Below are positions 1-14,300 of a DNA stretch of 37,641 nt, one piece after another; within the stretch, counting starts at the first letter, position 1, and each line of letters begins with the position of its first letter. The notes beneath the pieces are model-generated. The model was not told the origin of the DNA. It worked only from the letters and a program-made list of their open reading frames with translations, and did not search any database. The stretch covers positions 1 to 37,641 of IMG/VR virus record IMGVR_UViG_3300025646_000137. One strand, given 5' to 3'. A program made the position numbers and the translations under genes. Source of the stretch: a virus.

Positions 1-744
1 TACACGATCATCTACACTGAAGTTGCTGGTAACATTCAGGTGTAAGTCTGACTTTGGATTTTCCAGTACATAATCAAACACTCTATAGGTGTTGGGATCT
101 ATTGTAGGCTCGCCACCTGTCATACGAAAATGCTTAAGGTCCTTGTATAGGTCTGGCCACCAACGCCAGAAGGCTTCTCTGTATGGATTGCTTTCCCTAT
201 TAGGTATAGGCTTACGCTCACCTGTAAAGTGTGCAGGATCATTATGTGGGGTGCGTGTGGGATAAGCGCCGTGTTCTTTTGCTTCTTGTTCCCAAGTACT
301 GCTAAACTGTGGACTACAATAACTGCACTTCAAATTACATGCATGATTAAAGTTTACTTCAACATAACTAGGGTTGACATCTGCTTGTGGATTGGCTACT
401 ATGTCTTCAAATGCTTCCATAGCCCAAGGCTCGCCACTGCGATAGTGACGGTCACTTAAACTACCGTTTTGTTCTATATTCCAGCAATAGTTACATTCAG
501 TACACTTTACACCTTCCATCATTTCAGCACGACGTTGTTTTTTATGTGCTGTATTGTGTAGGGCACTGGGATTATCTACTAAGGGCTCAGTGGGTATGCG
601 GTGTAGTGGAGGATGATAGCAACTGTTTGTATGACCAGTGGTTAGGTGTAGGCTTACCTGCTTCCATTTAGCCAAGCAGAAACTACCGCTAACACCTGCT
701 AGTCGTGCTTTTGCTAGTTCTGCATCTGCCAGATAATCACTCAT
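1..744 (-). CDS. Radical SAM protein, twitch/SPASM-like (3' end outside window)
   Basis: Radical SAM enzymes cleave S-adenosylmethionine at a [4Fe-4S] cluster to start radical chemistry. I translated the complement from the ATG at 744, and 248 codons run open to the window edge, so the C-terminus is missing. The cluster motif CNLKCSYC (C136, C140, C143) is followed by MTGGEP (residues 208-213), the usual SAM-binding motif. A second group, CTECNYC (C81, C84, C87), lies before the core; such auxiliary-cluster cysteines normally lie after it. The start overlaps the upstream sulfotransferase-like gene by 8 bases. Similar twitch-type radical SAM proteins are known in marine T4-like phages. The substrate is unknown; a role in modifying a sugar or peptide is inferred from neighbouring glycosyltransferase genes. 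The family call is strong and the specific function is open. Confidence 0.85.
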   Translation of the reverse strand, partial: MSDYLADAELAKARLAGVSGSFCLAKWKQVSLHLTTGHTNSCYHPPLHRIPTEPLVDNPSALHNTAHKKQRRAEMMEGVKCTECNYCWNIEQNGSLSDRHYRSGEPWAMEAFEDIVANPQADVNPSYVEVNFNHACNLKCSYCSPQFSSTWEQEAKEHGAYPTRTPHNDPAHFTGERKPIPNRESNPYREAFWRWWPDLYKDLKHFRMTGGEPTIDPNTYRVFDYVLENPKSDLHLNVTSNFSVDDRV

Positions 745-1264
745 TATAATTAAATAATCCTAATTCGTACTCTACATCGTCCCAATTTGTTACAAATGTT
801 CTCATATCTATATTGTAAATATTTTTCTTAAGACTAGTAACTTCGTAAGTTTCCAAAAGATCTTCATAGTAAACTATTTTGTCCGAGACAAATGAGTAAT
901 CTAATATTTGTTCTGCTATAAATTGATCAAGTTGTCCTTGACTAATTGTAATCGACGGCATTGTCTGATCATAGACTGCTCCGTTATGTTTTCCTGTTAA
1001 ATCAAAAAGTATCCAACTTCTAAATTGTTCTACTTTATTACGTCTGCGTAGTATATGAATAGATTTATTTTCTAATATATGTTTTTGTGACGTAAGTAAC
1101 CTATACTTTAATCTTGGTTGGACAATACTTGCTATACCATTAAAATCTGATATCTCTAATAGTTCTCCAGTATATTTTAACGTAGTATTTTGTCCTTCAC
1201 ATATTTTGCCATAAAAATGCGATCCTGATCTGGCGCTAGTGATAATCAATAAATCTTTTACCAA
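737..1264 (-). CDS. Sulfotransferase-like protein (Stf0-like PAPS-binding motifs)
   Basis: A 175-residue protein. The N-terminal TSARSGSH (residues 9-16) after a hydrophobic strand resembles the 5'-phosphosulfate-binding loop of PAPS-dependent sulfotransferases. LRRRNKVEQFRSW (72-84), with Arg73-75 and Ser83, resembles the 3'-phosphate-binding segment of Stf0-type enzymes. Such enzymes move sulfate from PAPS to a sugar or other hydroxyl. It is shorter than typical sulfotransferases, so it may be a minimal or reduced version. No ATG lies before the P-loop. The best start is a TTG at 1264 that overlaps the upstream stop (TTGGTAA), with an AAAGG-type Shine-Dalgarno just upstream. Its end overlaps the radical SAM gene by 8 bases. 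A generic P-loop fold without sulfotransferase activity is the main alternative. Confidence 0.65.
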   Translation of the reverse strand: MVKDLLIITSARSGSHFYGKICEGQNTTLKYTGELLEISDFNGIASIVQPRLKYRLLTSQKHILENKSIHILRRRNKVEQFRSWILFDLTGKHNGAVYDQTMPSITISQGQLDQFIAEQILDYSFVSDKIVYYEDLLETYEVTSLKKNIYNIDMRTFVTNWDDVEYELGLFNYNE

Positions 1265-2175
1265 CCCTCTACCTTTCTAATAACTTCTATTTCAGTAGTC
1301 ATTGGGGTATAAGCATGATAGGTTTGACTATAGTAATGCTTAAAAAATTTACTTTGTTGTGGATTATAATCTACAATAGGAAGTTCTAGTATGCGTCTGA
1401 GTTTTGCACCATACTCAGTAAAATTACTATCCAACCATTCTTGTTCACGTTCCCACAAACTGTCTAGTGCGGCAAAGTCTCTTACTTCATGCCAGTCCCA
1501 GTCTGTAAGCATAAGCATATAAGTGCCTTGCCTAGCACCATACATTGCTTCGAATCCGTATTCTGCATCAGCACCAACACTCTGCCAGATACAAAGTTTG
1601 TCAAAGTTCTTAGCATGTACTTGCTGCTTGAATTCCTCTAGTGTAGGTTTGCGTCCTTTGTTAAGACACATCTTGACGCCTTCTCTAAAGCCTGCCCGCC
1701 ATGCATGTTTAGCATCACCATTGGGGTAAGTTGTGCTGTACACATTATTCATTGCTAGGTATTTTTGATCAAAACAAAACTCGACCACAGTTTCGTCAGT
1801 GCCATCAGTTGCTTCATGCGTTTTCATGTCGTTAATGAATTCACGTGTCCAGCAACTTAAACCACCATTGCCATACATGAGTCCATTTACAGCATTACGT
1901 GCTTTCCAACGAAACACACAATCAGTATACTCAGGTTTGATATCTAATTGAATATCAAAGAAGGATTCGTCAGGTATATTGTCACCGTCTATAAGAACAA
2001 AGCGTTCTGTATCACTGGCTGCGGCTGCTGCCTTATGCGCTGCATCGCTGCCAGCAACGCCATCTACTCGTTTTGCCCAGGGTACAATATTTTGTATCTG
2101 AACCCAAAACTCTTCCTTTTGTGGCTCATCGTAACTTAAATAAATTGTGTCTAAATCCGCAACATCAACCAGCAT
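1258..2175 (-). CDS. GT-A-like glycosyltransferase
   Basis: A 305-residue protein from the ATG at 2175. I prefer this start to a longer frame reaching 2229 because it gives an 11-base overlap with the upstream stop and has AAGGAA just before it. The N-terminal half looks like a GT-A nucleotide-sugar-binding fold: a strand and helix, then an Ala-rich segment with AGSDAAHKAA (41-50), then FVLIDGDN (59-66), whose DGD fits the metal-binding DxD motif. The following FRWKARNAVNGLMYGNGG would lie in the acceptor region. No signal peptide or membrane segment is seen, so it is probably cytoplasmic. It is not obviously a paralogue of the two other transferases in this operon. Donor and acceptor are unknown. 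Confidence 0.65.
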   Translation of the reverse strand: MLVDVADLDTIYLSYDEPQKEEFWVQIQNIVPWAKRVDGVAGSDAAHKAAAAASDTERFVLIDGDNIPDESFFDIQLDIKPEYTDCVFRWKARNAVNGLMYGNGGLSCWTREFINDMKTHEATDGTDETVVEFCFDQKYLAMNNVYSTTYPNGDAKHAWRAGFREGVKMCLNKGRKPTLEEFKQQVHAKNFDKLCIWQSVGADAEYGFEAMYGARQGTYMLMLTDWDWHEVRDFAALDSLWEREQEWLDSNFTEYGAKLRRILELPIVDYNPQQSKFFKHYYSQTYHAYTPMTTEIEVIRKVEGW

Positions 2176-2974
2176 TTTCCATTTCCTTGAGTAGTTTGCG
2201 GCGCTCTGCCTTAAGTTCTGCTTTGTCAAAATCGGATAAATGTAAATCGTTGTTTAAATTAACAACTTCACAGTTATAACTAAAACTCCAGCGTTCTCCC
2301 TTGCTACGGAAAGGACCAACACTGTGATTAAGCCAGGCTGGAAAACAATACAAGTCACCAACCCGGGGTTTAACCTTAAATTGTGCTAAACTCATGCTTG
2401 CGCTTCTGCCATCCCAAAAATTTATAAGCCCAGCACTGGGATCATGATCCTCTAATAACCATTCACGTTCAATATCGTCTGGCAATTTAAAGTATCCAAC
2501 CCCGCTAACAGTGCCAGAATGTGTGTGGGGAGGATTAAAGTCGCCCGCTACACTTATATTTCCCCAAACATGCTGAATATTAACAGTGATATTCATGTTT
2601 TGCAATTGTCTGTCTACGAGTTCTATATGCTTGGGAGTTAAGATGCCTTTCTTAAAACGCCACTCAACTAGTACACTACTAGCATAAAGTTGACTTGCAA
2701 TATCTGCTAAACAGTTTGTTAACAATGATGTTTTGTCTCCCAGCGTAGTTTCAGTTATCTTAAATTCTCGACGCATGTTACCGGCAAGCGCATAACTATT
2801 GTCCTCGTCATCGCTTATGTCTATAGAATTGCTGTATTTCTGGAATACTTTCTGCATTTCAGTTATCAATTCATCGTCCATTGCGGTTCTAACAATGTTA
2901 CAACTGAATGGTCTAATTACTTCATATTTTTCATCTGCAATTACACCAAGTCTATCTTGAACTTCATTCAACAT
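2165..2974 (-). CDS. 2OG-Fe(II) oxygenase-like protein
   Basis: A 269-residue protein whose C-terminal half resembles the putative 2OG-Fe(II) oxygenase families common in marine phages. The pattern is NPPHTHSGTVSGVGYF (148-162, with H150 and H152), NFWDGR (185-190), GDLYCFPAWLNHSV (206-219, with H217) and ERWSFSYN (227-234, with R228 as the likely 2-oxoglutarate carboxylate ligand). Members hydroxylate or otherwise oxidise a substrate using Fe(II), O2 and 2-oxoglutarate. The first metal motif reads HTH instead of the canonical HxD, so the exact metal ligands are unclear. The start has AAGGA eight bases upstream and overlaps the previous gene by 11 bases. The operon context suggests it acts on the same product as the transferases. 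The family call is good and the substrate is unknown. Confidence 0.8.
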   Translation of the reverse strand: MLNEVQDRLGVIADEKYEVIRPFSCNIVRTAMDDELITEMQKVFQKYSNSIDISDDEDNSYALAGNMRREFKITETTLGDKTSLLTNCLADIASQLYASSVLVEWRFKKGILTPKHIELVDRQLQNMNITVNIQHVWGNISVAGDFNPPHTHSGTVSGVGYFKLPDDIEREWLLEDHDPSAGLINFWDGRSASMSLAQFKVKPRVGDLYCFPAWLNHSVGPFRSKGERWSFSYNCEVVNLNNDLHLSDFDKAELKAERRKLLKEMENAG

Positions 2975-3308
2975 CGTTGATTTCCTTTATGCAAAAAAAA
3001 GGATTATTTTCCAGTGTTCGTGCTGGTGTCTTTTTCCAGTATATGTTTTGTGCTGTTTCAATCTTAACGAGTTTTCCATCAATAATTCTATGATCGACAC
3101 TGCTGGCATTAAAGTTTTTATCAATAATTACGTAAGGCTCAGTCCATGTGGTATCCACAGTAACAGTGTCTGCTCTACTGGTATCAAATTTACCTGTATC
3201 TTTATTATACGGCAATCTGCGCTCTACAGCAATTTTTGTTTTTTTAAATGCTGCCAATGCTTGAGCAAGTTCACCAAATTCGTTGTTATAGTCCCAGTCT
3301 TCGCTCAT
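2964..3308 (-). CDS. Unassigned small operon protein
   Basis: A 114-residue protein that I do not recognise. The ATG at 3308 is preferred over an in-frame TTG nine bases upstream because GAAAG lies close before it. It overlaps the upstream glycosyltransferase by 23 bases and the downstream oxygenase by 11, so it appears translationally coupled. The sequence is soluble and charged: an N-terminal helix-like part (DWDYNNEFGELAQALAAFKKTK), then a probable beta-rich part with two VTVDTTW/YVIIDKN strands and a Tyr-Trp-Lys-Lys segment. No signal peptide, membrane segment or catalytic motif is visible. It could be a partner or substrate of the neighbouring enzymes; nothing in the sequence decides this. 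Confidence 0.7.
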   Translation of the reverse strand: MSEDWDYNNEFGELAQALAAFKKTKIAVERRLPYNKDTGKFDTSRADTVTVDTTWTEPYVIIDKNFNASSVDHRIIDGKLVKIETAQNIYWKKTPARTLENNPFFCIKEINDVE

Positions 3309-4140
3309 ATCTTTCAATTAAATCCTCTGTACAAAAATCTTTTTGGTAATAGTGAAATGGATAATGTTGGGCGAATCCACCTAATATTAGATCCATGTCC
3401 TTGGTAAGTGTCCAAGGCACAGCATCTCTCCAATCCATGTTAGGATGCCAGCCATTAACCGCCCCCTTCATGTGCGTAAAGGTTGGATAACCTATTTTGG
3501 TGGTAAATCCAATATTACTGTTACCGAACTTGCTGATGGTGCTGGCAATACTAAAGATAACATCAGTATCAGGTACACTGTAAACATTACCAGCAAGAAC
3601 ACTAGTTCCAAGGTTATTATAGTTTTTAACAATCCTCTTTGACAGTTTAAAAAACTCCGCACTAGGCCTGGATAAACGAAAATACATAAAACCATTATAA
3701 ATATCATCCAAGCGATTAACATCAAAAAACTTCCTATATGCTCTGGTGTTACTGGGTCTGCCCTGATAATCTCTTACTATGCCAGTTAACACAACATCTT
3801 GATTTCTACATCCGTGCCACCAGTGATCAAGATTGCGAGGGATCAGCACGTCGCTTTCAACCTTGAAAGTTTCTTTGAATGGTGTAAGATCTAGTGCTTG
3901 ACATTCTAGAGCATAGGGATTGCTAGACTTTGGCACCACCTTAATATAATCAAATACACCACGCTGCTTGTCTGTCAAAGTTTCCGCTGAAGCATCATCA
4001 ACTACTACAGCAAACTTATTTATAGAGCAGGTTAACTTTATGCTAAGGGCAAGCAAGTATGCTTGATTAACATAGTTAACAGTGTCTGAGTTCTGCGCGA
4101 AAGTAAGCCAACCCTGTGGTTCTACTTTTTCTTGATACAT
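3286..4140 (-). CDS. GT-A-like glycosyltransferase with variant DxD (ESD)
   Basis: A 284-residue protein with an AAGGA Shine-Dalgarno five bases before its ATG. The architecture is that of small GT8-like GT-A enzymes: an N-terminal segment with ALSIKLTCSINKFAVVVDD (31-49), then LDLTPFKETFKVESDVLIPRNLDHWW (83-108), where the metal motif position reads ESD (95-97). The 4273-5055 protein has the matching stretch FDLSPYDETLLIDVDYL, so the two look like paralogues from an old tandem duplication separated by a mini-gene. Later segments RPSNTRAYRKFFD and YNGFMYFRLSRP suit an acceptor or nucleotide region. It overlaps the flanking genes by 19 and 23 bases. The donor sugar is unknown. Confidence 0.65.
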   Translation of the reverse strand: MYQEKVEPQGWLTFAQNSDTVNYVNQAYLLALSIKLTCSINKFAVVVDDASAETLTDKQRGVFDYIKVVPKSSNPYALECQALDLTPFKETFKVESDVLIPRNLDHWWHGCRNQDVVLTGIVRDYQGRPSNTRAYRKFFDVNRLDDIYNGFMYFRLSRPSAEFFKLSKRIVKNYNNLGTSVLAGNVYSVPDTDVIFSIASTISKFGNSNIGFTTKIGYPTFTHMKGAVNGWHPNMDWRDAVPWTLTKDMDLILGGFAQHYPFHYYQKDFCTEDLIERYERRLGL

Positions 4141-4292
4141 AAACTTCCTTCGAGCATTTCTACTATTAGGTCATCACCTTCTTTCCAGCCTGTTATTTCT
4201 AACAACTCCGGAGGTAAATTCATTATAACATTATCGGGATCATCCGGGATATCTTCAAAAATATCGTTGGCTTTAAATGTTAGCGTAGTCAT
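4122..4292 (-). CDS. AbrB/MazE/SpoVT-like mini-protein
   Basis: A 56-residue protein. The ATG at 4292 is chosen over one twelve bases upstream because GGAG sits six bases before it. Residues about 22-55 (VIMNLPPELLEITGWKEGDDLIVEMLEGSLCIKKK) follow the swapped-hairpin AbrB pattern: a short strand, LP..L, a G.KEGD turn, an acidic strand and a terminal basic strand. The family includes transition-state regulators and antitoxins, which bind DNA as dimers. The gene is squeezed between two glycosyltransferase genes and overlaps both (20 and 19 bases), and no toxin gene is next to it. The N-terminal 20 residues are acidic, which is odd for DNA binding. It could regulate the cassette or be a protein-binding adaptor. 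Confidence 0.7.
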   Translation of the reverse strand: MTTLTFKANDIFEDIPDDPDNVIMNLPPELLEITGWKEGDDLIVEMLEGSLCIKKK

Positions 4293-5055
4293 ATAATGCT
4301 CCATATATTTCTGGATCTTGTAAACAGGCTTTGTTCATACAGTGTAGGTTTACAGATTTGAGTTTTACTGCGTTATATTTGTCACCATGTCTATAACGTA
4401 TCAGTAACTTGTCGCCCTCTACTTTATATATGCTATCCTCAGTGCTCAAACTTGCTAGTGGATGATTAAAGTACGTACCGCCGGCATAGCCATTCATAAG
4501 TTGATGCGCGACAGTTAAACTAAAATCATTGCGATATTTTCCCGCCTTAAAACCATATAGTTTAGCATAGTAACGCCAGTTTGACTGTATGTTTTTCATG
4601 GTTTCAAATATACGATGCGCCAATTCACATTTACGAAAATAAACCACTGTAGCCCAGAGCATGGGCAATCCAGATCTGGTCATTGTCGCATCATTTTTAA
4701 AACTATTGGTTTGTGTTACATCCCACACATTATTATAACAGAGGAATTCGTGATTTCCGGAAAAGTATTGTTTTAAATTATTGTTAAAGGTGAGATAATC
4801 TACATCTATCAACAGTGTTTCATCATAGGGAGATAGATCAAAAGCAAGTGTTCTATCACTGTTATACCAAGGCACCGTAACTATCTCGTTGTTGTGCCAA
4901 CGAAATGCTCTTGTATTGCCTGGTCGTGCTTCACCTACGTGTATATGTGTTTCAATGTCTAAATGTTTTTCTACTAGTTTTGCTGCTAGTTTAGCAAACC
5001 CTATGTAGTCTATTGTTTCATGTGGTGTGGCAAGTAATAGCGCACCCTGGCTCAT
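4273..5055 (-). CDS. GT-A-like glycosyltransferase (DVD motif)
   Basis: A 260-residue protein whose ATG overlaps the upstream stop in an ATGA junction, with GGA about six bases before it. The N-terminus (GALLLATPHETIDYIGFAKLAAKLVEKHL) is a strand-helix start like that of nucleotide-sugar transferases. ETLLIDVDYLTFNNNL (79-94) carries the metal-binding DVD at 84-86. HNNEIVTVPWYNSDR and MLWATVVYFRKCE may line the substrate cleft. The segment FDLSPYDETLLIDVDYL aligns with the 3286-4140 protein, which suggests paralogy. No export signal is seen. It probably acts on a cytoplasmic glycan or protein acceptor; specificity cannot be read. Confidence 0.65.
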   Translation of the reverse strand: MSQGALLLATPHETIDYIGFAKLAAKLVEKHLDIETHIHVGEARPGNTRAFRWHNNEIVTVPWYNSDRTLAFDLSPYDETLLIDVDYLTFNNNLKQYFSGNHEFLCYNNVWDVTQTNSFKNDATMTRSGLPMLWATVVYFRKCELAHRIFETMKNIQSNWRYYAKLYGFKAGKYRNDFSLTVAHQLMNGYAGGTYFNHPLASLSTEDSIYKVEGDKLLIRYRHGDKYNAVKLKSVNLHCMNKACLQDPEIYGALYDYANI

Positions 5056-5378
5056 AGTTGTTCCACACGCCTAACCTGCTTTAATTCAGCATGCTGATTG
5101 TGCCAGTCATTCATTACTTCGTACCAGCGTTCTCTACAGTGTACTAACATGTCACAGGCATCCACAATTTTTACTGGATTATCGTAATCGTCTACTAGGT
5201 ATAGCAAGTCATCCTGTGGCCATGTTGCTAGTAGTGCCATTAGTTCTACTGTAACTCTAAACTGACCACCATTGTATGTGATAGTTAGGCGTTGTTCCTG
5301 CTGTTCTTTAAGTGTGAGTCGCTGGCGATTATGATCCAATCGTTGGCGGGCAAATTCTTCAAATGTTTCCTGGGTCAT
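5052..5378 (-). CDS. Unassigned first gene of the cassette, possibly leaderless
   Basis: A 108-residue protein from the ATG at 5378; another in-frame ATG lies at 5384. The predicted +1 of the strong promoter at 5385-5413 falls on the A of the 5378 ATG, so the 5384 codon would lie outside the mRNA, and translation would start on a leaderless message. The N-terminus is a charged helix (FEEFARQRLDHNRQRLTLKEQQEQR, likely coiled coil), followed by strands LTITYNGG and FRVTVELM, then a Trp-rich C-terminal helix. It is soluble with no signal peptide. It ends in a 4-base ATGA overlap with the first glycosyltransferase. I do not recognise the family. A tail-fibre-linked or adaptor role is possible from position only. 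Confidence 0.7.
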   Translation of the reverse strand: MTQETFEEFARQRLDHNRQRLTLKEQQEQRLTITYNGGQFRVTVELMALLATWPQDDLLYLVDDYDNPVKIVDACDMLVHCRERWYEVMNDWHNQHAELKQVRRVEQL

Positions 5379-5384
5379 ACACAT

Positions 5385-5413
5385 AGTATAACAGGGGCTT
5401 TCGCCCCTGTCAA
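5385..5413 (-). promoter_or_regulatory. Near-consensus sigma-70 promoter of the modification cassette
   Basis: Read on the - strand, a perfect -35 TTGACA (5408-5413) is followed by a 17-base spacer and a -10 TATACT (5385-5390) with an extended -10 TG at the end of the spacer. The predicted +1 is 5378, the first base of an ATG. This is a host RNA-polymerase-type signal and does not resemble the late motif found before the virion genes, so the cassette can be expressed without gp55. The spacer holds a perfect inverted repeat, so a repressor or a DNA-bending protein could control it. Confidence 0.85.
5391..5410. repeat. Perfect inverted repeat in the promoter spacer
   Basis: An 8-bp perfect stem, ACAGGGGC and GCCCCTGT on the - strand, flanks a GAAA loop. 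It fills the spacer and touches the -35 element, so it could be an operator. In leftward read-through RNA from the fibre genes it would fold as a GNRA-capped hairpin directly before the first AUG. It is not a convincing terminator: no U-run follows on the - strand, and on the + strand the T-run comes four bases after the stem. Confidence 0.8.
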
Positions 5414-5455: not shown

Positions 5456-6412
5456 TTAAGACTCTGTATTTGTTACACTTGCCCAAACTGGGGTGCCCCA
5501 GGTTGCTGTAATATAAGTTGTTGCTGGCGGTGTTGCTGCAAATACATCACTTTTGGTTCCGTCAACTTGGTCTAATACGTTATAAATGTTCTTGTTATAA
5601 CTGGTGTTGTCAGCCTCGTCGTCCTGCCATGTACATTTTAATGTAATAACTTCACCATTATTGCCTCTACCATCAGCGTGAGCTGCGCTAACCTTACCTT
5701 CTAACTGCCAATAGTTAGCAGTATATGGAGCGGTATCAGCAAGTTGTTTGTAAAGAACTGTATAACCTGTTCCTAGATCATAATAACCAGTTGTACTAGC
5801 ATTAGTGGTAGGAGTACCACTACCACCGTTCTTTTCTAGGGTTGTAGCACGTAGTCTAACACTTCCAATGAGTGTGTCAATTAAGTCTACCCATTCATTG
5901 TATTTGGCATCTGCTGTACCGCCTGTAATGCCAGGGTTAACATCAATGTAACCACCAGCATTGAAGAAGTAACGAGCTTCGTCACCACCATCAAAGGTGA
6001 GGCTTGCTTCATGTACGATAGTTGTTGTGAATGTACCACTGCTTGATAGCGTGGTATCTGTGCTAGCACCAACACTGGCATTAACACTGCCACCAGCTAC
6101 GCTGGTATCAAGTGTACCAATGTCTGTTGCGAGAGCAGTAATAGCTGAAATAATATCACCAGTTGTTGGGTTAGTAACACTATCAACTGTAATATTTCCA
6201 TCATCTGCTGTATGATCGCTGATGCTTTTAATTCTTGTTAGTAGGGTAGCCCACTGTGTAGCTGTAATTGTATTGCCATCTGCTACTGCGCTGAGTGTGG
6301 TTGTTTGACCCCAACCTCTGATTCCAGTGCTCTGACCCCATAGTGCGTTAACACTGGTTACAAATCCATTGTAGTGAGTGTCTAGGATTGTATCACCTGT
6401 TTGGTATGCCAT
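5456..6412 (-). CDS. Virion structural or fibre-associated protein
   Basis: A 318-residue protein. The N-terminus (MAYQTGDTILDTHYNGFVTSVNALWG) followed by a GWGQTTTLSAVADGNTITATQWATLL block is of a type seen near tail-fibre genes in marine phages, probably structural. The middle is Thr/Ser/Gly/Ala-rich, typical of beta-structured fibre shafts, and a more complex C-terminal part (YFFNAGGYIDVNPG, WQDDEADNTSYNKNIY) could be a globular tip. AAGGA lies nine bases before the ATG. It follows the 479-residue fibre gene by 15 bases, so it is probably co-transcribed with it. It is the last gene of the late block before the sigma-70 promoter. The exact role is unknown. Confidence 0.65.
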   Translation of the reverse strand: MAYQTGDTILDTHYNGFVTSVNALWGQSTGIRGWGQTTTLSAVADGNTITATQWATLLTRIKSISDHTADDGNITVDSVTNPTTGDIISAITALATDIGTLDTSVAGGSVNASVGASTDTTLSSSGTFTTTIVHEASLTFDGGDEARYFFNAGGYIDVNPGITGGTADAKYNEWVDLIDTLIGSVRLRATTLEKNGGSGTPTTNASTTGYYDLGTGYTVLYKQLADTAPYTANYWQLEGKVSAAHADGRGNNGEVITLKCTWQDDEADNTSYNKNIYNVLDQVDGTKSDVFAATPPATTYITATWGTPVWASVTNTES

Positions 6413-6427
6413 ATTTAAAAATCCTTA

Positions 6428-7867
6428 TTAATTTATGGTAACGAAAGCTTCAACTGTGCCTTCTTGTTCTGTCGACTTAGATTCAATGGCACGACCAATC
6501 ACATTAAATGCTGTTGCTTCACCTGGTTGTGCTGCTCTTGCTAGGCCGTTACCGGCACTAACAAGTCTATCACCTTTATTTATCTGACCTACCACTCTTA
6601 CGGGCACTCTACCAGCTACTGCGACAGCGGCGCCATCTTCAAGAGCAGCATTCATCAAGTATGCTGGGCGACTACTGATAACACCAAATACGTTATCAGC
6701 TAATTCTTCATTTACACGAGTAATTTCTTCTGCACCGCCAAGAGCAACTACTGTACCGGGCACATAATGTGCGTCTGTTGTAAAGTTTTCTGCAACGTCA
6801 GCGTATTGTGCAGCAGTAGAAGTTCCATTAAATGTTGTAGCATAAACTGTGCTAATTCTTGTACCACTGCTACCAAAGTTAACTGTGCCACTTACAAGAA
6901 GGTTACCTGTCATTGTGCCACCTGCTGTTTCAAGATAACCACTACCGCTGATCTGTGAATCAACATATGCTTTTGTTGCTGCATCAGTACTAGCAGTTGG
7001 TGTAGCAAGATCTGTGATTTTCTTGCTGCTTACGCTAACAGTACCGGTACCATCTGGAGCAAGAACAATGCTACCATTGGTATTTGTGTTTGTAAATACC
7101 GGATTGCTGCTACCATTGATATTAATTGTTAAGTCACCGTCATCACCAATGATAAGAGCAGTGTCGTTGTCAATAGTCAATGTTCCGGTTGTGGTATCAT
7201 TAGCATTGCTACGCAGATAATTTGCCGCAGCAACGCCGCCGAGCGCATCACTGTCTGTTGCTGTTCCTTGGAACTTAGCACCTGTAACGGTTGAACTTGC
7301 TTGGATACCTGGCTTAATTGTGGCAAATCCACTAATTGCTGCTTGTGGAGTAAATTCTGTGTCTTTGCTTACTGTACCTACTACTGTGTTAGCAACATAA
7401 AGTTTTACAACAACATGGTCTGTAGCACCACTATCGGTTACAACTTCAACAATGGCACCTGAAGTTCCTGAACCGCTGGTAAATGCTGGACCAATTGTGG
7501 TAAAGCTACTACCGTTGTAAACCTTTAACTGACCATTTGTAGTATCCCACCACAAATCACCAGTTACACTGCTACTTGGAGCACTTGCGCTTGCTGTGCT
7601 TGAGCTAACAGTTTTAAATGCACTACCAGTATAAACTTTAAGTAGTGCGTTAGTTGTATCCCACCACATTTGACCGGCGATTGGCGCCGAAGGAGCAGAT
7701 GAGTTTGCAAAATTCTCTAGTAATTTTACATAGTTTTCATTTAGAAACTCGCCATATCCAGCGTAGTTTTTTCCAATTAGAACTAAGTCTGTGGTGCTTG
7801 TATTAATTGTTCCGTCTGATACGGTTGCTAATACAGAACCATTAGTTTTGTTGATTGTATATGCCAT
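6428..7867 (-). CDS. Tail-fibre/adhesin-type structural protein
   Basis: A 479-residue, Ser/Thr/Gly-rich protein. Residues about 60-125 hold two copies of a G(Q/D)(M/L)WWDTTN..LKVY.GS.F repeat found in phage and bacterial surface proteins. A shaft with LGGVAAANYLRSNAN and a DAATKAYVDSQ segment (about 298-308) follows, typical of collagen-like or trimeric fibres. The C-terminal domain (about 344-479, QYADVAENF, PGTVVALGG, GVISSRPAYLMN, VAVAGRVPVRV) is shared with the 904-residue fibre upstream. A late-promoter motif lies 28 bases before the ATG, with GGAG ten bases before it. Host-contact fibre is the most likely role. The C-terminal domain may be a trimerisation or chaperone unit. Confidence 0.75.
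   Translation of the reverse strand: MAYTINKTNGSVLATVSDGTINTSTTDLVLIGKNYAGYGEFLNENYVKLLENFANSSAPSAPIAGQMWWDTTNALLKVYTGSAFKTVSSSTASASAPSSSVTGDLWWDTTNGQLKVYNGSSFTTIGPAFTSGSGTSGAIVEVVTDSGATDHVVVKLYVANTVVGTVSKDTEFTPQAAISGFATIKPGIQASSTVTGAKFQGTATDSDALGGVAAANYLRSNANDTTTGTLTIDNDTALIIGDDGDLTININGSSNPVFTNTNTNGSIVLAPDGTGTVSVSSKKITDLATPTASTDAATKAYVDSQISGSGYLETAGGTMTGNLLVSGTVNFGSSGTRISTVYATTFNGTSTAAQYADVAENFTTDAHYVPGTVVALGGAEEITRVNEELADNVFGVISSRPAYLMNAALEDGAAVAVAGRVPVRVVGQINKGDRLVSAGNGLARAAQPGEATAFNVIGRAIESKSTEQEGTVEAFVTIN
6951..7020. repeat. Fibre DNA repeat, copy 1
   Basis: Aligns without gaps to 9881-9950, with 53 of 70 bases identical by my count. It encodes the DAATKAYVDSQ region in both fibre genes. 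It marks a shared module and could serve as a site for recombination between fibre genes. Confidence 0.75.
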
Positions 7868-7894
7868 TGTTTTAATTCTCCACGAACTTTGTTT

Positions 7895-7902
7895 TATTTA
7901 TC
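7895..7902 (-). promoter_or_regulatory. T4-like late promoter motif (GATAAATA)
   Basis: GATAAATA on the - strand matches the T4 late consensus TATAAATA at seven of eight positions. It lies in the 56-base gap upstream of the 479-residue fibre gene, 28 bases before its ATG. The gp55 sigma factor that would read it is encoded in this window. Confidence 0.55.
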
Positions 7903-7923
7903 ATGAAATATAATCTTATCATA

Positions 7924-8577
7924 TTATAAGCCGGTTAAATTAGTCAAAGTCTGAATACGAATTGTATAATCTATCTGTATCAATCTGTTTAAACTTTTTT
8001 GTACCGGGTGAAATATAACATGTGTTAATAATTTTCCTGTGTTTACTGTTCCAGTCCAGCTTTTTAGACCCAGTTCATCAAATGTATACGTATCATTGAA
8101 GTTGCTGGTATTATCAAATGCTTGTTGATCGTTGGGCTCGCCGTAGTCTAATAAACAACTAACTACAATGTCAGTATAAACATTTCCGCTAACATGACTT
8201 ACTGTAAGTTTATTACGGCCAGCATCAGTGTTTAAACTGGAGTTGTTATCCACTACTTTATAGTAGGTTTGGTTGTACAAACTAGCGTTTTGCCCTGTAG
8301 AGTTAGCAGGAAGATAAGTTATAACTCCCGTGGGATCAACACTGGTTCCACCATTTCCAAATGCCATTTCATGAATAAAGCCTGTGGTTTTATTTGCTAC
8401 ACTAAGAGCAAGTGCTTCACTCATGTTTTCAAAATGAATAGCATTTCTTTTGTTTACATATTCTTCGCCAGACTCTGGGTCAAAAATACGTATGTGTCCT
8501 TCCATAAGAACACCGCCCTTTTCTTTTAAAGGCGTAGTTGGCTCTAATTGGCCCTGTTTAATTTCTGTACTTTTCAT
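7924..8577 (-). CDS. Unassigned structural-region protein
   Basis: A 217-residue protein. The ATG at 8577 is preferred over one at 8592 because AGGAAGA lies seven bases before it, while nothing precedes the upstream codon. The N-terminal 25 residues are charged and flexible (STEIKQGQLEPTTPLKEKGG). HIRIFDPESGEEYVNKRNAIHFENMSEALA follows, then a beta-rich body. The segment FIHEMAFGNGGT and several short strands suggest a small beta-sandwich. It sits between two fibre genes on the late strand, so it is probably a virion component or a fibre adaptor. No enzyme motif, signal peptide or membrane segment is seen. Confidence 0.65.
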   Translation of the reverse strand: MKSTEIKQGQLEPTTPLKEKGGVLMEGHIRIFDPESGEEYVNKRNAIHFENMSEALALSVANKTTGFIHEMAFGNGGTSVDPTGVITYLPANSTGQNASLYNQTYYKVVDNNSSLNTDAGRNKLTVSHVSGNVYTDIVVSCLLDYGEPNDQQAFDNTSNFNDTYTFDELGLKSWTGTVNTGKLLTHVIFHPVQKSLNRLIQIDYTIRIQTLTNLTGL

Positions 8578-8598
8578 GTGTTCTTCCTGCATATTATA

Positions 8599-11313
8599 CT
8601 AAACCTTTAACATACATTCAACAAGTTTTTCACCTGGATTTGTGTTTGTTTCTAGAGCTATACCAACTCTAAGTCCATCTGCTGTTGCGCTGGCTAAGCC
8701 ATTATTATCTGCTTTAACAACTTGCGCCTTTTCAACTGGACCCATAATACGAACTTTAACTCGTCCAACCAACGCAACTGGGATGCCGCCTTCTTGTTCA
8801 CTGTTCATTAGATAGGCTGGATTTTCACTGACTACGCCAGCTGGAACACCCAGTCTGTCGCAGTGTGTTACTTCAAAGGCTCCACCAACTTTTAAAACTG
8901 TTCCCACTGGATATCCAGCATCGGGTATGTACATTTCTGCTAAGTCAGCGTATTGTGCGCTGGTAGAAGTACCTTCAAACAAAGTGGCAACAACATTGCC
9001 AAGAACTCTTACTTTACCTGTTCCAGCTGGATCGAGTATTAAATCATCATTGCTTCTTGTTGTGGCAATGTTATTATCAACAACAATAATGCCATCTGTG
9101 GTAACTGCATTGGCATCAACTGTACCGGATACAGTCAACGAAGACAGTGTTCCTACACTAGTAATATTGGCTTGAGACGCGGTTTGTAGAGTACCTGTTA
9201 ATTGTGAAGCAATAACACTGTCAGTATAAACTGTTGCCCATTCGTTACCACTTGCTCCTAGATTATAGGTACTGTCAGAACTAGATATAATATCAGCAGC
9301 CACTACAACTTTTCCAGTACCGCTGGTTCTAATTTCTAAGTTATCATTACTGCGTGTAGTTTCAACTACATTATCGTATAGGTTTAAGCCATCTGTTGTG
9401 ATAGTATCAGCATCTAATGTACCCAACTGTAAGGTTGCCAACGTAAAATTAGCATCATTAATATCAATTGTTGTTCCAGTTGGTTCCGGTCCATAATCAG
9501 AGAATAATTTAAATATTCCGCTGTCACTAGCGTCACGAAATAAACCAGCATGGGCTGCTCTACTACCATTGTAATAGTGTCCAGTAAAACCAATATCTAA
9601 TAGGTCACTGGACTCGTTTCCTACCGCCAGCCTAATTAGAGAATCTGCTACATCTAAGTCAGTAGTACTAACAGTTGTGGTTGTTCCAAGAACGGACAAG
9701 TTACCACTAACTTCTAGTGTATTAATAGTAACGCTGTCTGGCAAACCAATTGTAACTTTATTATTGGTAACCGCTGTTTCAATTTCACTGGCTGTACCCT
9801 CAAATGTTAGTGTATCAGTGCCAACTGTAACTGTATCAGTACCTGTGTTACCGGCGATATCAAATGCAGTACCTGCACTTACTTGTGAGTCAACATATGC
9901 TTTAGTTGCTGCGTCTTGCGCTGATGTTGGCGTAGCAAGATTTATGATTTTACTATCAGATACAGAAACGTTACCTGTGCCATTTGGAGATAGGACTAAG
10001 TCTGCGTTACTAACATTAGTGGTAATATCATTTTGATTTATTGTGATAGAATCGATATATAGACTACCTGCTGTTAAACTGCTGGTACCAATGTTTATAT
10101 TTCCAAAATTACTGGTAATACTGCCTGAATCTAATGCACCAGTACTAACTATTCCTGTGAGATTGCCAGTTGTAATAACTGTACCTGTTGCATTGGGTAA
10201 CGTAATTATTCTATTGGTGCTTGGATCTGCTATCACCATTGTAGTGGTATTAGAACTTCCAGTAAAAACTAGATCGACTGTGTTGTCTAGTGTAAGATTA
10301 CTAGCAATGGTTCCTAAACTTGTTATGTTGGTTTGTGCAGCAGTTGTTAGTGTACCGCTTAAATTTGTCGCTGTAACTGTCGTAGCAGTAAGTTCGCCAC
10401 TTACCGCAACAACACCTGTACCATTAGGTACTAGATTAATATCATTGTTAGTTACTAGGTTACTAATCGTATCGCCACCAATTTCAATGTTACCAAAGTC
10501 TGGCGCACCCTGCATACTAATGCTGATGTCGTCTGTGTTTTCAGTAACACTGAATGCTGCTGGATTAAAAATAAGAGTCTTAAACTTAAGATCACTAGCA
10601 ACTTTTGTTTTATATAACCCAACGCCCGCGCCTACATTAGTTACTGTGTTTGCTTCACCACCAGCAGCACCAGGCGCAATTGCCGGTATCCATTCGTTAT
10701 CTGAGCTACTCCAAGTTAACACATCATTGTTGTTTGGAGTAACCGAAGTAGTATCAACATCGCTAAGAGCATCAATGCTGGTAGAATTTATTTTTGTAAG
10801 AACCCTTGAGTCAGTATAATACATTGTACCACTGCTTACGGTAGCACTTGGATCTTCTGGCAGATTTGCTGTATTAACTTGATTAGCACCAGTACCAAAA
10901 TCAATATGTGTGTCATTAATACCGTCGGTTGGCACACTAATTTCGCCACTGGTAATATTAATACCGCTGCCTGCGGTAAAATGTGCTCTTACTTCACTGG
11001 CACTTGGACCGGTATAGGTAATAACACCAGTGCTACTATTGTATGATAAACTTCCGTCGCCGCCAGAATCAGTGATACTAATAGCTGTTCTTGCTCTTGT
11101 GTTTGTAAACCAAATGTTGGTAGCGCCGCCAGATTCGCTGATGTCATCAGTATTAAGTGTAATTGAATTACTGGAGTTTACAGTGAGACTATTAACAGTT
11201 TTTACATAATTTTCTTCTAAAAGGTTAGTTCTTGTATTCAGATCTGTAAAGTTACCATCCATTTCGGTATGGGTAAGTGGAACGCTTTTACTGCTTCTTA
11301 AAACTATGGCCAT
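8599..11313 (-). CDS. Long tail-fibre structural protein
   Basis: A 904-residue protein. The N-terminus (MAIVLRSSKSVPLTHTEMDGNFTDLN) is a common start of marine phage fibres and probably anchors it to the baseplate. Most of the length is Thr/Ser/Asn-rich beta-structure with internal repeats, such as TTDG....DN...TTRSND.L......GTGKV twice before the C-terminus, and LTGTLQTASQANITS-type units. A DAATKAYVDSQ module sits near residue 474. The C-terminal 130 residues (QYADLAEMYIPDAGYPVGTVLKVGG, VVSENPAYLMNS, VALVGRVKVRI) match those of the 479-residue fibre. GAGAG precedes the ATG, and two late motifs lie just upstream. The likely role is host recognition. A self-cleaving intramolecular chaperone end is a possible reading of the C-terminus, not shown here. 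Confidence 0.8.
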   Translation of the reverse strand: MAIVLRSSKSVPLTHTEMDGNFTDLNTRTNLLEENYVKTVNSLTVNSSNSITLNTDDISESGGATNIWFTNTRARTAISITDSGGDGSLSYNSSTGVITYTGPSASEVRAHFTAGSGINITSGEISVPTDGINDTHIDFGTGANQVNTANLPEDPSATVSSGTMYYTDSRVLTKINSTSIDALSDVDTTSVTPNNNDVLTWSSSDNEWIPAIAPGAAGGEANTVTNVGAGVGLYKTKVASDLKFKTLIFNPAAFSVTENTDDISISMQGAPDFGNIEIGGDTISNLVTNNDINLVPNGTGVVAVSGELTATTVTATNLSGTLTTAAQTNITSLGTIASNLTLDNTVDLVFTGSSNTTTMVIADPSTNRIITLPNATGTVITTGNLTGIVSTGALDSGSITSNFGNINIGTSSLTAGSLYIDSITINQNDITTNVSNADLVLSPNGTGNVSVSDSKIINLATPTSAQDAATKAYVDSQVSAGTAFDIAGNTGTDTVTVGTDTLTFEGTASEIETAVTNNKVTIGLPDSVTINTLEVSGNLSVLGTTTTVSTTDLDVADSLIRLAVGNESSDLLDIGFTGHYYNGSRAAHAGLFRDASDSGIFKLFSDYGPEPTGTTIDINDANFTLATLQLGTLDADTITTDGLNLYDNVVETTRSNDNLEIRTSGTGKVVVAADIISSSDSTYNLGASGNEWATVYTDSVIASQLTGTLQTASQANITSVGTLSSLTVSGTVDANAVTTDGIIVVDNNIATTRSNDDLILDPAGTGKVRVLGNVVATLFEGTSTSAQYADLAEMYIPDAGYPVGTVLKVGGAFEVTHCDRLGVPAGVVSENPAYLMNSEQEGGIPVALVGRVKVRIMGPVEKAQVVKADNNGLASATADGLRVGIALETNTNPGEKLVECMLKV
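9881..9950. repeat. Fibre DNA repeat, copy 2
   Basis: Partner of 6951-7020, encoding the DAATKAYVDSQ module of the 904-residue fibre. The two copies are on the same strand, 2.9 kb apart, and differ by substitutions only. Confidence 0.75.
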
Positions 11314-11358: not shown

Positions 11359-14300
11359 TTATCCTAGTGGTAATTCCACAACATAAAACTCATCTACATA
11401 GTCATCTTCAACGTACTTTGGTGATTCAAGTTCTTTTACATAAGCAGGCACAAATGCTTCACAGGCTTTTATAAAGTTAGCATTTGTTGTACTAGACGCT
11501 TGTAATCCATTGCCATTCGCAGCAGTTATAGAACCCAAATCATACCATGTTTTAGTATGTGTATCTGTTGCTGGTAACCTCTGGGCATCTGTTGTATCAT
11601 ACACTTCTGTTCCTGCTAGATGCAGATTAGCAAATCTTGTTCCGTGTGTTGCACGTCTAATATTAGTAATATAATTTTCGTCATGGCTTATCTGCCAGTA
11701 TGTAATTCTCTCATTGCCAAGATATATTACCCCGGGTTGATCTGAGTTTACCGAAACCACTGGCAACTTACTTGCATCCTTAAGGTATATTACGGTATCA
11801 GTTGGCAACAAATCTCTGGCAAGTTTGGTAGCACCATCGGCGCATAACCTGAAATATTCGTAATCACCTAGCATATTTTTAGTCATTCTATAACCAATCG
11901 TTGGCTCAATTATTAGTTCGCTGAAATGAGTAACAATAATTTCGCTGCCGGCAGTTATAGTTTGACTGCTCAAGTCAATTCTACCATTGATATCAATACT
12001 GTATTCGCCGCTATGTAGTCTTACTCCATCTAGTGTTACCCATAAATTATTAGCGTTTGTAGGAATTCTATCCATTGTATACTTGTTAAGCGCGGTGCCA
12101 CTTAACGTGACTCCGTCAAAGTTGCCGCTATCAAAGCCGTTTTCATCATACCCAATGATTATTGAAGTAGTCTCACTGCCTTCACCAATGAATACCTTTG
12201 TATGAACTCTAATAGGATCGTGATTATAGAATTGAGTTATGTAAAGTGTGTTACCAGTACTAAAACTTAATCCGCTGTCTAGTGTAATTAAATCGTTGTT
12301 GATAAAGTATTCATTAGCGTTTCTTACACCAATTATCAGAGAATCTCCTGCGGAATAAGCATCCAGTAGATTTACTTGATAATACAGCGTGCTATCAATA
12401 TCTGTTTCAATTGAAACTGTATAGTCTTGAACAATGTTAAGATTTTCAATGGTATTGGTTGCTGCGCGAATAACACTAACTTGTATATCTCCAACACTTA
12501 CATTAGTGGTATCTTCGCCGGCGGTAGTTGGTGTTCTATAAGCCAGTGTACTTCCATCCAAGGTATAATACTTTGCATTGCTGGGTTTAAGTCTGACTCC
12601 ATTTAATTCAACAATTACATTGCTCTCAAAGCTCTTTGTAAATGTTCTAAAATTATAATCTAGCTCATATTCATAAGTTCCAGCGGTTAGAGAAATTTCC
12701 ATGGTCTCGCCGCGAGTAAATGCTGGCTTATCAGTGGCCCTATTGCTTATGTAAGCATGTATTACACTGCCATTTGGATTGGTTGTAGTAGTTGTAATGT
12801 TAACTCTATTATTTGCATTTGTGATCGTGTGATCAACGGGTACACCATCCCTCAAAACTAAACTTTGAGTATATCTGGTATAGTCTATGCCTAGTGTAAA
12901 ACTCACCGAACTGCCATCACCTATGATAAGTTCTTCGTGTGTGATCTTTTCACCGGTGACGCCATAACCATATAGATAAATTAAAGTTCCTGCGGCAGGT
13001 GTTGATGCGAAACGCACTGTTCTGGTTTGATAATTAACAGTGAAATCATATTTCCTAGTGGATCCGTGATAAGCAACAATATAATCAACAAGTTCACGTC
13101 TTGTGGTATTGGCATAACTAAATGAGTTGGTTGTGCCGTCGGCAATGTATACTCTGCTTACTGTTTTAAAACTATTTCCATCGCCAGCAAAATCGTCGCT
13201 GGGATCGGTGTAGACTTCTATGTCAAGCGTGTCAAAAACTATGCCCGGCACAAATTCTTCTGGTGAGTGACTGTTATAAACGTCTACAAATTCGCCGCCG
13301 GCAACATTAATATCTTCGGGTCTTGTCCCTAGCGCAAGATCGCTAAATGTACTTTTTATTACAGAATCTAAAGCACTAGCACCAGCAAGAACAGTTAATC
13401 CATTGGTGTCAATTTCAAAGTCATCAAAACCTAGTGTGTCAAAATTTCCTTGATCGTAGCCAGGTTCTCTATCAAATCCAATACCGCTTACCTTATTAGC
13501 AAAATAATCTGTTCCCTTTTGTAACAGTTTTAGATCGTCGCCTATCATTCCCTGTGTTGGGTAATAATAGGCTGCGATTCTGTCAGCCGCGTTAGCAAAA
13601 TCTTCATCGTTATAGGTTACAAGTGCAGTAGCACCACTAGCATCTTCTAGGCTAAATGTACTGCCACTTGTAAACCCACCTGACAGATCAACACGATAAA
13701 CGTCTTGAATTCCTGTATTAGTATTATAATAAGCAATCAGTGTGTTATAACTATAACTGGTGTTTGGTTGCCAGTCCTGTATAGAGCTACTATAAGTAAT
13801 TCTATCGAATTTAATAGTGGTATCAAATTCTCTTACCGCGTCATTGGCAATCCTTGGTAATAACACAAGCCCTGTACCGGAACCGCTGTAAGTTATTATT
13901 GGTGTTTGTGTATATCCGCTGCCCTTTTTAACAACGCTTACACTAATAATTTTTGTACCATTGGTAATTGCCGTAACTTCGGCACGCTGTCCGCCAGTAA
14001 TATTTGGTTCGCTAACTGTAATTACTGGATTTTCTAAGAATCCAGATCCACCGTTGTAAATTTCTACGCTATCCAAATAATATGTATAGTTTTCACTCCA
14101 TGGATTGTTAAGTCCTTGTGTTCTTATTATTTCGTCGCCAGCAAAGTCGCCGCTGGGTTTTCTAAAATAACCTTCTACTGAATCATAGAAACTATGTGTA
14201 TCAAAGTCAGTTACATCACCCAAGTATTCGTCATTGCCTTTGTATCTAAGACTATATTCTCTTATGTAGGTATGATATGGTTTTACTTCATTGATATAAT

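Follow-up and report, generated by a model that had tools for sequence, protein, structure and literature searches.

Apparent vertical inheritance and a predicted early-type promoter in a glycosyltransferase–radical SAM operon beside the tail fibres of large T4-related phages

The record IMGVR_UViG_3300025646_000137, analysed here over its full length (the window), is a 37.6-kb fragment of an uncultured virus that carries T4-type baseplate genes and a late sigma factor gene. At one of its ends lie four fibre or virion genes (5456-11313, minus strand) and then nine open reading frames (ORFs), all on the minus strand, which a preliminary description of the sequence had presented as one modification cassette. 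Comparison with related loci suggests a different unit: a block of glycosyltransferase and radical S-adenosylmethionine (rSAM) genes that, judged by its sequence conservation, is a vertically inherited core operon of a large T4-related phage lineage, with a predicted sigma-70/T4-early-type promoter of its own and a leaderless start. Its products may be soluble, early-made enzymes that modify a phage-encoded acceptor, probably a fibre protein, although this part of the interpretation is tentative.

Extent and inheritance of the operon

The nine genes, lettered A to I, and the three nearest fibre or virion genes are as follows.

Gene A: 5052..5378, minus strand; small conserved protein, 108 amino acids (the listed ORF extends to 5384)
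Gene B: 4273..5055, minus strand; GT8-like glycosyltransferase with a predicted GT-A fold
Gene C: 4122..4292, minus strand; AbrB/MazE-like protein, 56 amino acids, accessory
Gene D: 3286..4140, minus strand; GT8-like glycosyltransferase, paralogue of B
Gene E: 2964..3308, minus strand; subclade form of the conserved small protein c8
Gene F: 2165..2974, minus strand; 2-oxoglutarate (2OG)-Fe(II) oxygenase, accessory
Gene G: 1258..2175, minus strand; glycosyltransferase with a predicted GT-A fold, the most conserved transferase of the block
Gene H: 737..1264, minus strand; possible sulfotransferase dependent on 3'-phosphoadenosine 5'-phosphosulfate, accessory, TTG start; motif basis only
Gene I: 1..744, minus strand; first twitch rSAM enzyme of a row, 248 of about 455 amino acids, cut by the contig end
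c6: 5456..6412, minus strand; virion protein upstream of the operon
c2: 6428..7867, minus strand; tail-fibre protein with PHROG virion and fibre matches
c1: 7924..8592, minus strand; conserved virion protein (phrog_11259, 4e-70)

What is the evidence for a unit, and where are its limits? First, the genes overlap. The eight overlap values of the preliminary description were exactly reproduced from the ORF coordinates: A/B 4, B/C 20 (ATG at 4292), C/D 19, D/E 23 (ATG at 3308), E/F 11, F/G 11 (ATG at 2175), G/H 7 and H/I 8 bases, with the G/H value requiring that H start at the TTG at 1264. The adjoining fibre genes do not overlap, and are separated by gaps of 15, 56, 6 and 45 bases. A scan with G found 387 viral contigs, and the best 80 of these 387 were used for locus comparison. 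Across the 80 related loci, the junctions A-B, B-D, D-E, E-G, G-rSAM and rSAM-c11 (c11 being the gene that follows the rSAM row) overlap or touch in 90-99% of cases and the rSAM-rSAM junctions in 85%; the junctions c1-c2, c2-c6 and c6-A (median 68 nucleotides) overlap almost never. Overlap within the operon is not chance, and the tight coupling and fibre adjacency proposed in the preliminary description are supported.

Second, part of the set is nearly always present. When presence was tabulated over 81 loci, A, B, D, G and rSAM genes were found in 77-81 of them, in one order (homologues of A in 77), as compared with 8 loci for the local form of E, 6 for F, 2 for C and 1 for H. In most loci, the position of E between D and G is held by E or c8, which align with an hhalign probability of 97. 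Typically the genes run c1-c2-c6-A-B-D-E-G, then an insert, a row of five rSAM genes whose order is fixed, and c11, often followed by a gene for a NodU-type carbamoyltransferase (c13). Beyond base 1 of the window, relatives continue with about four more rSAM genes and c11. The nine genes are therefore not a natural unit, because C, F and H are accessory, local insertions and the rSAM row continues; the constant block consists of A, B, D, E and G, followed by about five twitch rSAM genes in a row and then c11. A and E, previously set down as orphans, are both conserved families of this phage clade.

Third, the block is found even when its presence is not presupposed. In a second scan, anchored on the fibre gene c1, wherever the sequence reached far enough A was present in 46/46 loci, B in 38/38, D in 34/34, G in 24/24 and rSAM genes in 17/18. 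The genes were thus not scattered singly over random places, the outcome that the preliminary description had named as counting against its proposal. The order A-B-D-E-G-rSAM is constant across about 160 loci, and it is also kept in loci where G is only 40-49% identical (phage contigs binned with metagenome-assembled genomes, or MAGs).

Fourth, the block diverges together with the virion genes. Among 44 non-redundant loci, mean identity is 0.67 for G (loci were selected by similarity to G, which narrows its range), 0.66 for the first and 0.67 for the fifth rSAM gene, and 0.73 for the virion gene c1, as compared with 0.54 for the fibre gene c2, 0.45 for c6, and 0.40-0.45 for B, D and A. Distances for G correlate with those for c1 (r = 0.83). 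Because G is conserved to about the same degree as a virion gene, and the two diverge in step, the block is best described as a vertically inherited core and not a roaming cassette. The earlier idea of a set that travels as a block is better put as vertical inheritance alongside the virion genes.

It is very improbable that the genes are ordinary variable cargo of a host-recognition cluster, that is, unrelated auxiliary genes that lie side by side by chance. In pelagimyophages such a region is described as hypervariable and lacking synteny (PMC7029224), and the rarity of C, F and H among the 81 loci would suit cargo. However, the constant gene order, the overlapping junctions and the distances that track a virion gene all argue against chance neighbours, and the c1-anchored loci largely refute the idea. 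A cellular origin was also considered and rejected: the G pattern occurs in 10 loci of about 85,000 genomes, all of them MAG contigs, and 8 of these show the phage block or parts of it. Block-bearing phage contigs (L084-L091) occur in MAGs labelled Rickettsiales, Neomarinimicrobiota, Gammaproteobacteria and Neisseriaceae; this binning is likely contamination, so no host can be read from it.

A predicted early-type promoter before gene A

Two features lie in the gap between c6 and A.

Operon promoter: 5385..5413, minus strand; TTGACA (5413-5408), 17-nucleotide spacer, TGTTATACT as the -10 hexamer (5390-5385)
Inverted repeat: 5391..5410, no strand assigned; ACAGGGGC-GAAA-GCCCCTGT, occupying the promoter spacer

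The predicted promoter, TTGACA-17-TATACT, matches the consensus at 11 of 12 positions, has a TG extension, and ranks first among 43 promoter-like sites in 12 kb. Downstream of the -10 hexamer come ATGTGT and then an ATG at 5378, six bases past the -10; hence, gene A probably starts without a leader at 5378 and not at 5384. Within the spacer, the two 8-bp arms of the inverted repeat match perfectly around a GAAA loop, and in one relative (L007) a different palindrome occupies the same place, so the repeat may be an operator or a merged terminator.

Similar architecture is widespread among relatives. In many of them, a GC hairpin with a T run lies in the gap before A, followed by a -10 hexamer 5-8 nucleotides before the start codon. 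In a first set of gaps, the -10/leaderless pattern was found in 28 of 50 distinct gaps, versus 3.9 in shuffled sequences, and in 1-2 of about 48 fibre gaps. In a second set, largely but not wholly independent of the first, it was found in 86 of 101 distinct gaps, versus 5.6 after shuffling (maximum 14), with a -35 of TTTACT or TTTACC in 55; the gap sequences are related, meaning that these counts are not independent events. For comparison, T4 has GTTTAC as its early -35 and TATAAATA as its late motif (PMC1524935). The fibre genes have T4-late-type motifs, often with a terminator at the end, and an exact TATAAATA is found in 19 of 47 c1-c2 gaps, versus 1.6 shuffled. There are exceptions: some lineages (L018, L020, L021 and L068) lack the early-type promoter before A, and L068 and L077 have a late-type motif. 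Genome-wide, in two long relatives, the leaderless -10 is only about 2-3 times as frequent as in shuffles and TATAAATA is weak; hence, the promoter prediction rests on the c6-A gap and not on a genome-wide promoter class. The operon would, on this sequence evidence, be expressed early and its genes co-translated.

Predicted enzymes and their possible acceptor

The three GT-A-like transferases named in the preliminary description are supported by fold or profile. For B, an AlphaFold2 model (mean predicted local distance difference test, pLDDT, 91) has LgtC as its best PDB fold match (E 1.3e-5), followed by blood-group glycosyltransferases, LARGE1 and glycogenin; its DxD (residues 84/86) is invariant in 32 sequences. 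D is placed in the GT-A fold by homology to B (hhalign probability 99.4) and by a profile match to glycogenin (E 1.5e-4), and has an invariant ExD (residues 95/97). Since neither B nor D matches a Pfam family, the GT8 profile included, they are termed GT8-like and not assigned to GT8. G (pLDDT 87) has GT-A enzymes as its PDB fold matches (RmlT, E 5e-4) and an invariant DGDN (residues 63-66), but no Pfam family match, GT2 profiles included, and hence is not assigned to GT2. A sequence relationship of G to B or D was rejected. G is very acidic (-18) and has no hydrophobic segment, and the core proteins are predicted to be soluble.

Gene I, earlier called radical SAM-like, matches NF033640 with 210.6 bits (cut-off 170) despite its truncation, and contains CNLKCSYC. 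Homologues in a related locus (L016) score 279-417 bits, and CxxxCxxC is kept in 311 of 311 rSAM proteins examined. Identification of I as a prokaryotic viperin was rejected (20.4 bits versus 180 in NCBIfam; PADLOC E 6e-5 only), as was a defence system, for which PADLOC families gave only weak rSAM-superfamily matches. Long relatives, most of them 221-344 kb, carry 10-13 NF033640 genes each, and in four genomes of this size range (G006, G008, G009 and G011) many of these genes lie outside the operon. NF033640 is rare in bacteria, with matches in 7 of 712 sampled genomes, some of them phage contigs, and the family looks largely virus-borne.

The accessory genes are more varied. F is a 2OG-Fe oxygenase by PF13759 (64.5 bits, cut-off 27; phrog_81, 1e-23), in agreement with its earlier label. 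C resembles PF04014 (E 5e-4), as its AbrB-like label implies, but at 20.4 bits does not reach the curated cut-off of 24.7; elsewhere it was found in one other locus only (L004, 79%). The sulfotransferase-like label for H found no database support: there was no match in Pfam, NCBIfam, PHROG or PDB sequences, and the possible assignment is a guess from motifs spotted by eye (TSARSGSHF and RRRNKVEQFRSW). Among relatives, c34 is epimerase-like by sequence, and c27 (L003:10280-11767), which sits between the first and second rSAM genes, resembles a B12-binding-type rSAM protein. Four others, c10, c12, c14 and c29 (e.g., L016:12299-13435 and L030:11959-12930), share a motif of the ITEKTxxP type, reminiscent by eye of exostosin-like transferases, with no family match.

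What might these enzymes modify? The favoured answer, held tentatively, is a phage-encoded acceptor. Host RNA polymerase would transcribe the operon early from its own sigma-70 promoter, and the overlapping genes of the leaderless message would be translated together. The products, namely the soluble GT-A glycosyltransferases B, D and G, about five twitch rSAM enzymes and the small proteins A and E, would accumulate before the late virion genes come on. Before assembly, they would then glycosylate a cytoplasmic phage acceptor, most likely a protein of the tail fibre or of another part of the tail, and modify it by rSAM chemistry, and accessory genes (the 2OG oxygenase, possible sulfotransferase, carbamoyltransferase, epimerase and transferase-like genes) would vary the decoration between phages. 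We infer these activities and this acceptor from sequence, as we do a glycan or glycoconjugate product and its place on the envelope or a fibre. Twitch and SPASM rSAM enzymes often act on peptides. Three properties of the core favour a phage acceptor: it is conserved, it is soluble, and it always lies next to the fibres. A further reason comes from the nearest cultured relatives, Phosso and Atu_ph07, in which the same locus has a peptide-maturase-like SPASM enzyme and a CHSSCHASCHNSRSRR-tailed protein (see below). The conservation of G and the first rSAM gene, and the co-divergence of G with c1, also suit a conserved acceptor carried by the phage.

Several observations weigh against a fibre acceptor. 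The early-type promoter and a terminator set the operon apart from the late fibre genes, which suits a host target better; as the strongest argument for such a target, this limits confidence in the fibre model. A search of this clade's fibre proteins found no candidate substrate motif, the analogous locus in cultured phages is no orthologue, having only the rSAM fold in common, and the glycosyltransferases, the NodU-type carbamoyltransferase and the epimerase would suit a surface glycan too.

Indeed, remodelling of the host envelope is a less likely but serious alternative. In that case, the early operon would change a glycan on the surface of the infected cell and so mask the receptor against further phages and debris. 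Fibre adjacency would be explained, since a fibre and the receptor that is masked have to match, and the early-type promoter in 86 of 101 gaps would be expected. The nearest solved structure to the GT8-like fold of B is a lipooligosaccharide galactosyltransferase (LgtC), c13 and c34 are among the accessory genes, and O-chain modification is favoured by the pelagimyophage authors for glycosyltransferases in a similar locus (PMC7029224). However, the core has no membrane-spanning or carrier-lipid protein and G is strongly acidic, rows of rSAM genes are unusual in surface-glycan pathways, and so highly conserved a core would be odd if the acceptor were a variable glycan of many hosts.

It is distinctly unlikely that the target is another conserved cytoplasmic component modified early, such as nucleic acid, RNA polymerase, a ribosomal component, or a small molecule or peptide. 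The early-type promoter, soluble enzymes and conserved core would all fit, and phages are known to use glycosyltransferases and carbamoyltransferases in DNA hypermodification. On the other hand, the constant fibre adjacency would be left unexplained. A thymidylate-synthase-family gene (PF00303) was found in only 2 of 7 large relatives, and Tet/JBP in 0 of 7 by a search that had no positive control, meaning that most relatives have no recognised route to a hydroxymethylated base. DNA hypermodification is thus unsupported in most of the large relatives.

What are the implications? Glycosyltransferase and rSAM genes near phage fibres are usually classed as variable auxiliary genes, whereas in this clade they appear to form a core operon that is inherited vertically, has an early-type promoter and is kept by every testable member of the lineage. 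Should fibres be the substrate, the fibre sequence would not reveal the chemistry on which host recognition depends; should it be the host, the operon would be a large, conserved early takeover function. Either reading can be tested with one operon, one promoter, and mass spectrometry of virions or cells. A bolder idea, and a rather doubtful one at present, is that large aquatic phages mature their own fibres through an early operon of glycosyltransferases and five rSAM enzymes, yielding adhesins with glycan modifications and with modifications like those of ribosomally synthesised and post-translationally modified peptides (RiPPs), a combination that no phage is known to have.

Cultured relatives and known systems

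Cultured phages gave no match to the window at the DNA level, and tblastn with G, B, D, I, A and c8 found none in them either. The neighbouring virion genes do have cultured relatives: c1 is 52% identical in Sinorhizobium phage Phosso, and c6 has a relative in PA5oct (E 2e-3) that is a virion protein by electrospray ionisation tandem mass spectrometry. Upstream of the fibres, the window has a single VrlC-like gene (11359-25020, 4553 amino acids), and Phosso, Atu_ph07 and PA5oct also have a giant virion gene of similar length there. Vibrio phages KVP40 and K566 have rSAM genes and none of A, B, D, E and G; in K566 (L082:8720-15456), four rSAM-like genes form a short run without the block's glycosyltransferases.

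The closest cultured parallel is the fibre-adjacent locus of Phosso and Atu_ph07. Like the operon, it lies directly after the c1-c2 homologues, has near-contiguous genes, and encodes three or four rSAM proteins. However, these form a different run, with C-terminal SPASM domains where the window's clade has N-terminal twitch rSAM enzymes, and include a SPASM enzyme that resembles peptide maturases; homologues of B, D, G, A and E are absent, and a Cys-His-rich-tailed protein is present. Beside the SPASM rSAM genes, Atu_ph07 gp170 (L301:25068-25958) and Phosso gp289 (L300:24348-25268) end in CHSSCHASCHNSRSRR / CHTSCHASCHSSRSRR, a tail of RiPP-like character at the C-terminus of a probable virion protein, and phrog_35144 shares only this tail region. 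Virion-protein genes of Atu_ph07 lie in clusters that include coding sequences 170-215 (PMC6102473), and gp170 sits at the edge of that virion-protein-rich cluster. In a search for RiPP precursors of this core type, Cys-His-rich tails were found in Phosso and Atu_ph07 only, and none in the window's clade. An early-type promoter was looked for in these two phages and not found, and hhalign gave no support for a homology between c11 and Atu_ph07 gp166 that inspection by eye had suggested.

No description of the conserved operon or its promoter was found in the open-access literature; the type of locus was loosely known before, and the conserved operon with an early promoter appears to be new. 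A moraphage lineage (PMC12619734) was rejected as a match, being a different lineage with no radical SAM. Three known systems are closer. First, phage glycosyltransferases decorate virion proteins in mycobacteriophages (Freeman et al. 2023, cited in PMC12619734), and a Che8 glycosyltransferase weakly resembles G in fold (E 1.8e-3); these are other phages with another gene order and no rSAM row. Second, the T4-like marine genome TARA_ERS488813_N000010 has 12 rSAM genes (PMC5332604), comparable to the 10-13 of the window's relatives, although in the parts of that paper concerned with them rSAM is treated as Fe-S metabolism, and an operon, glycosyltransferases and a fibre link are not reported. 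Third, the host recognition cluster (HRC) of pelagimyophages is a sizeable region that adjoins VrlC and the tail fibres and contains glycosyltransferases and, in some genomes, rSAM cassettes (PMC7029224). Its limits are VrlC and gp14; in the window, the VrlC-like gene lies upstream and gp14 is not inside the 37.6 kb. The HRC is described as non-syntenic and variable, whereas the core described here is fixed and overlapping, has a predicted early-type promoter of its own, and is present in every testable member of another lineage, whose genomes often exceed 200 kb.

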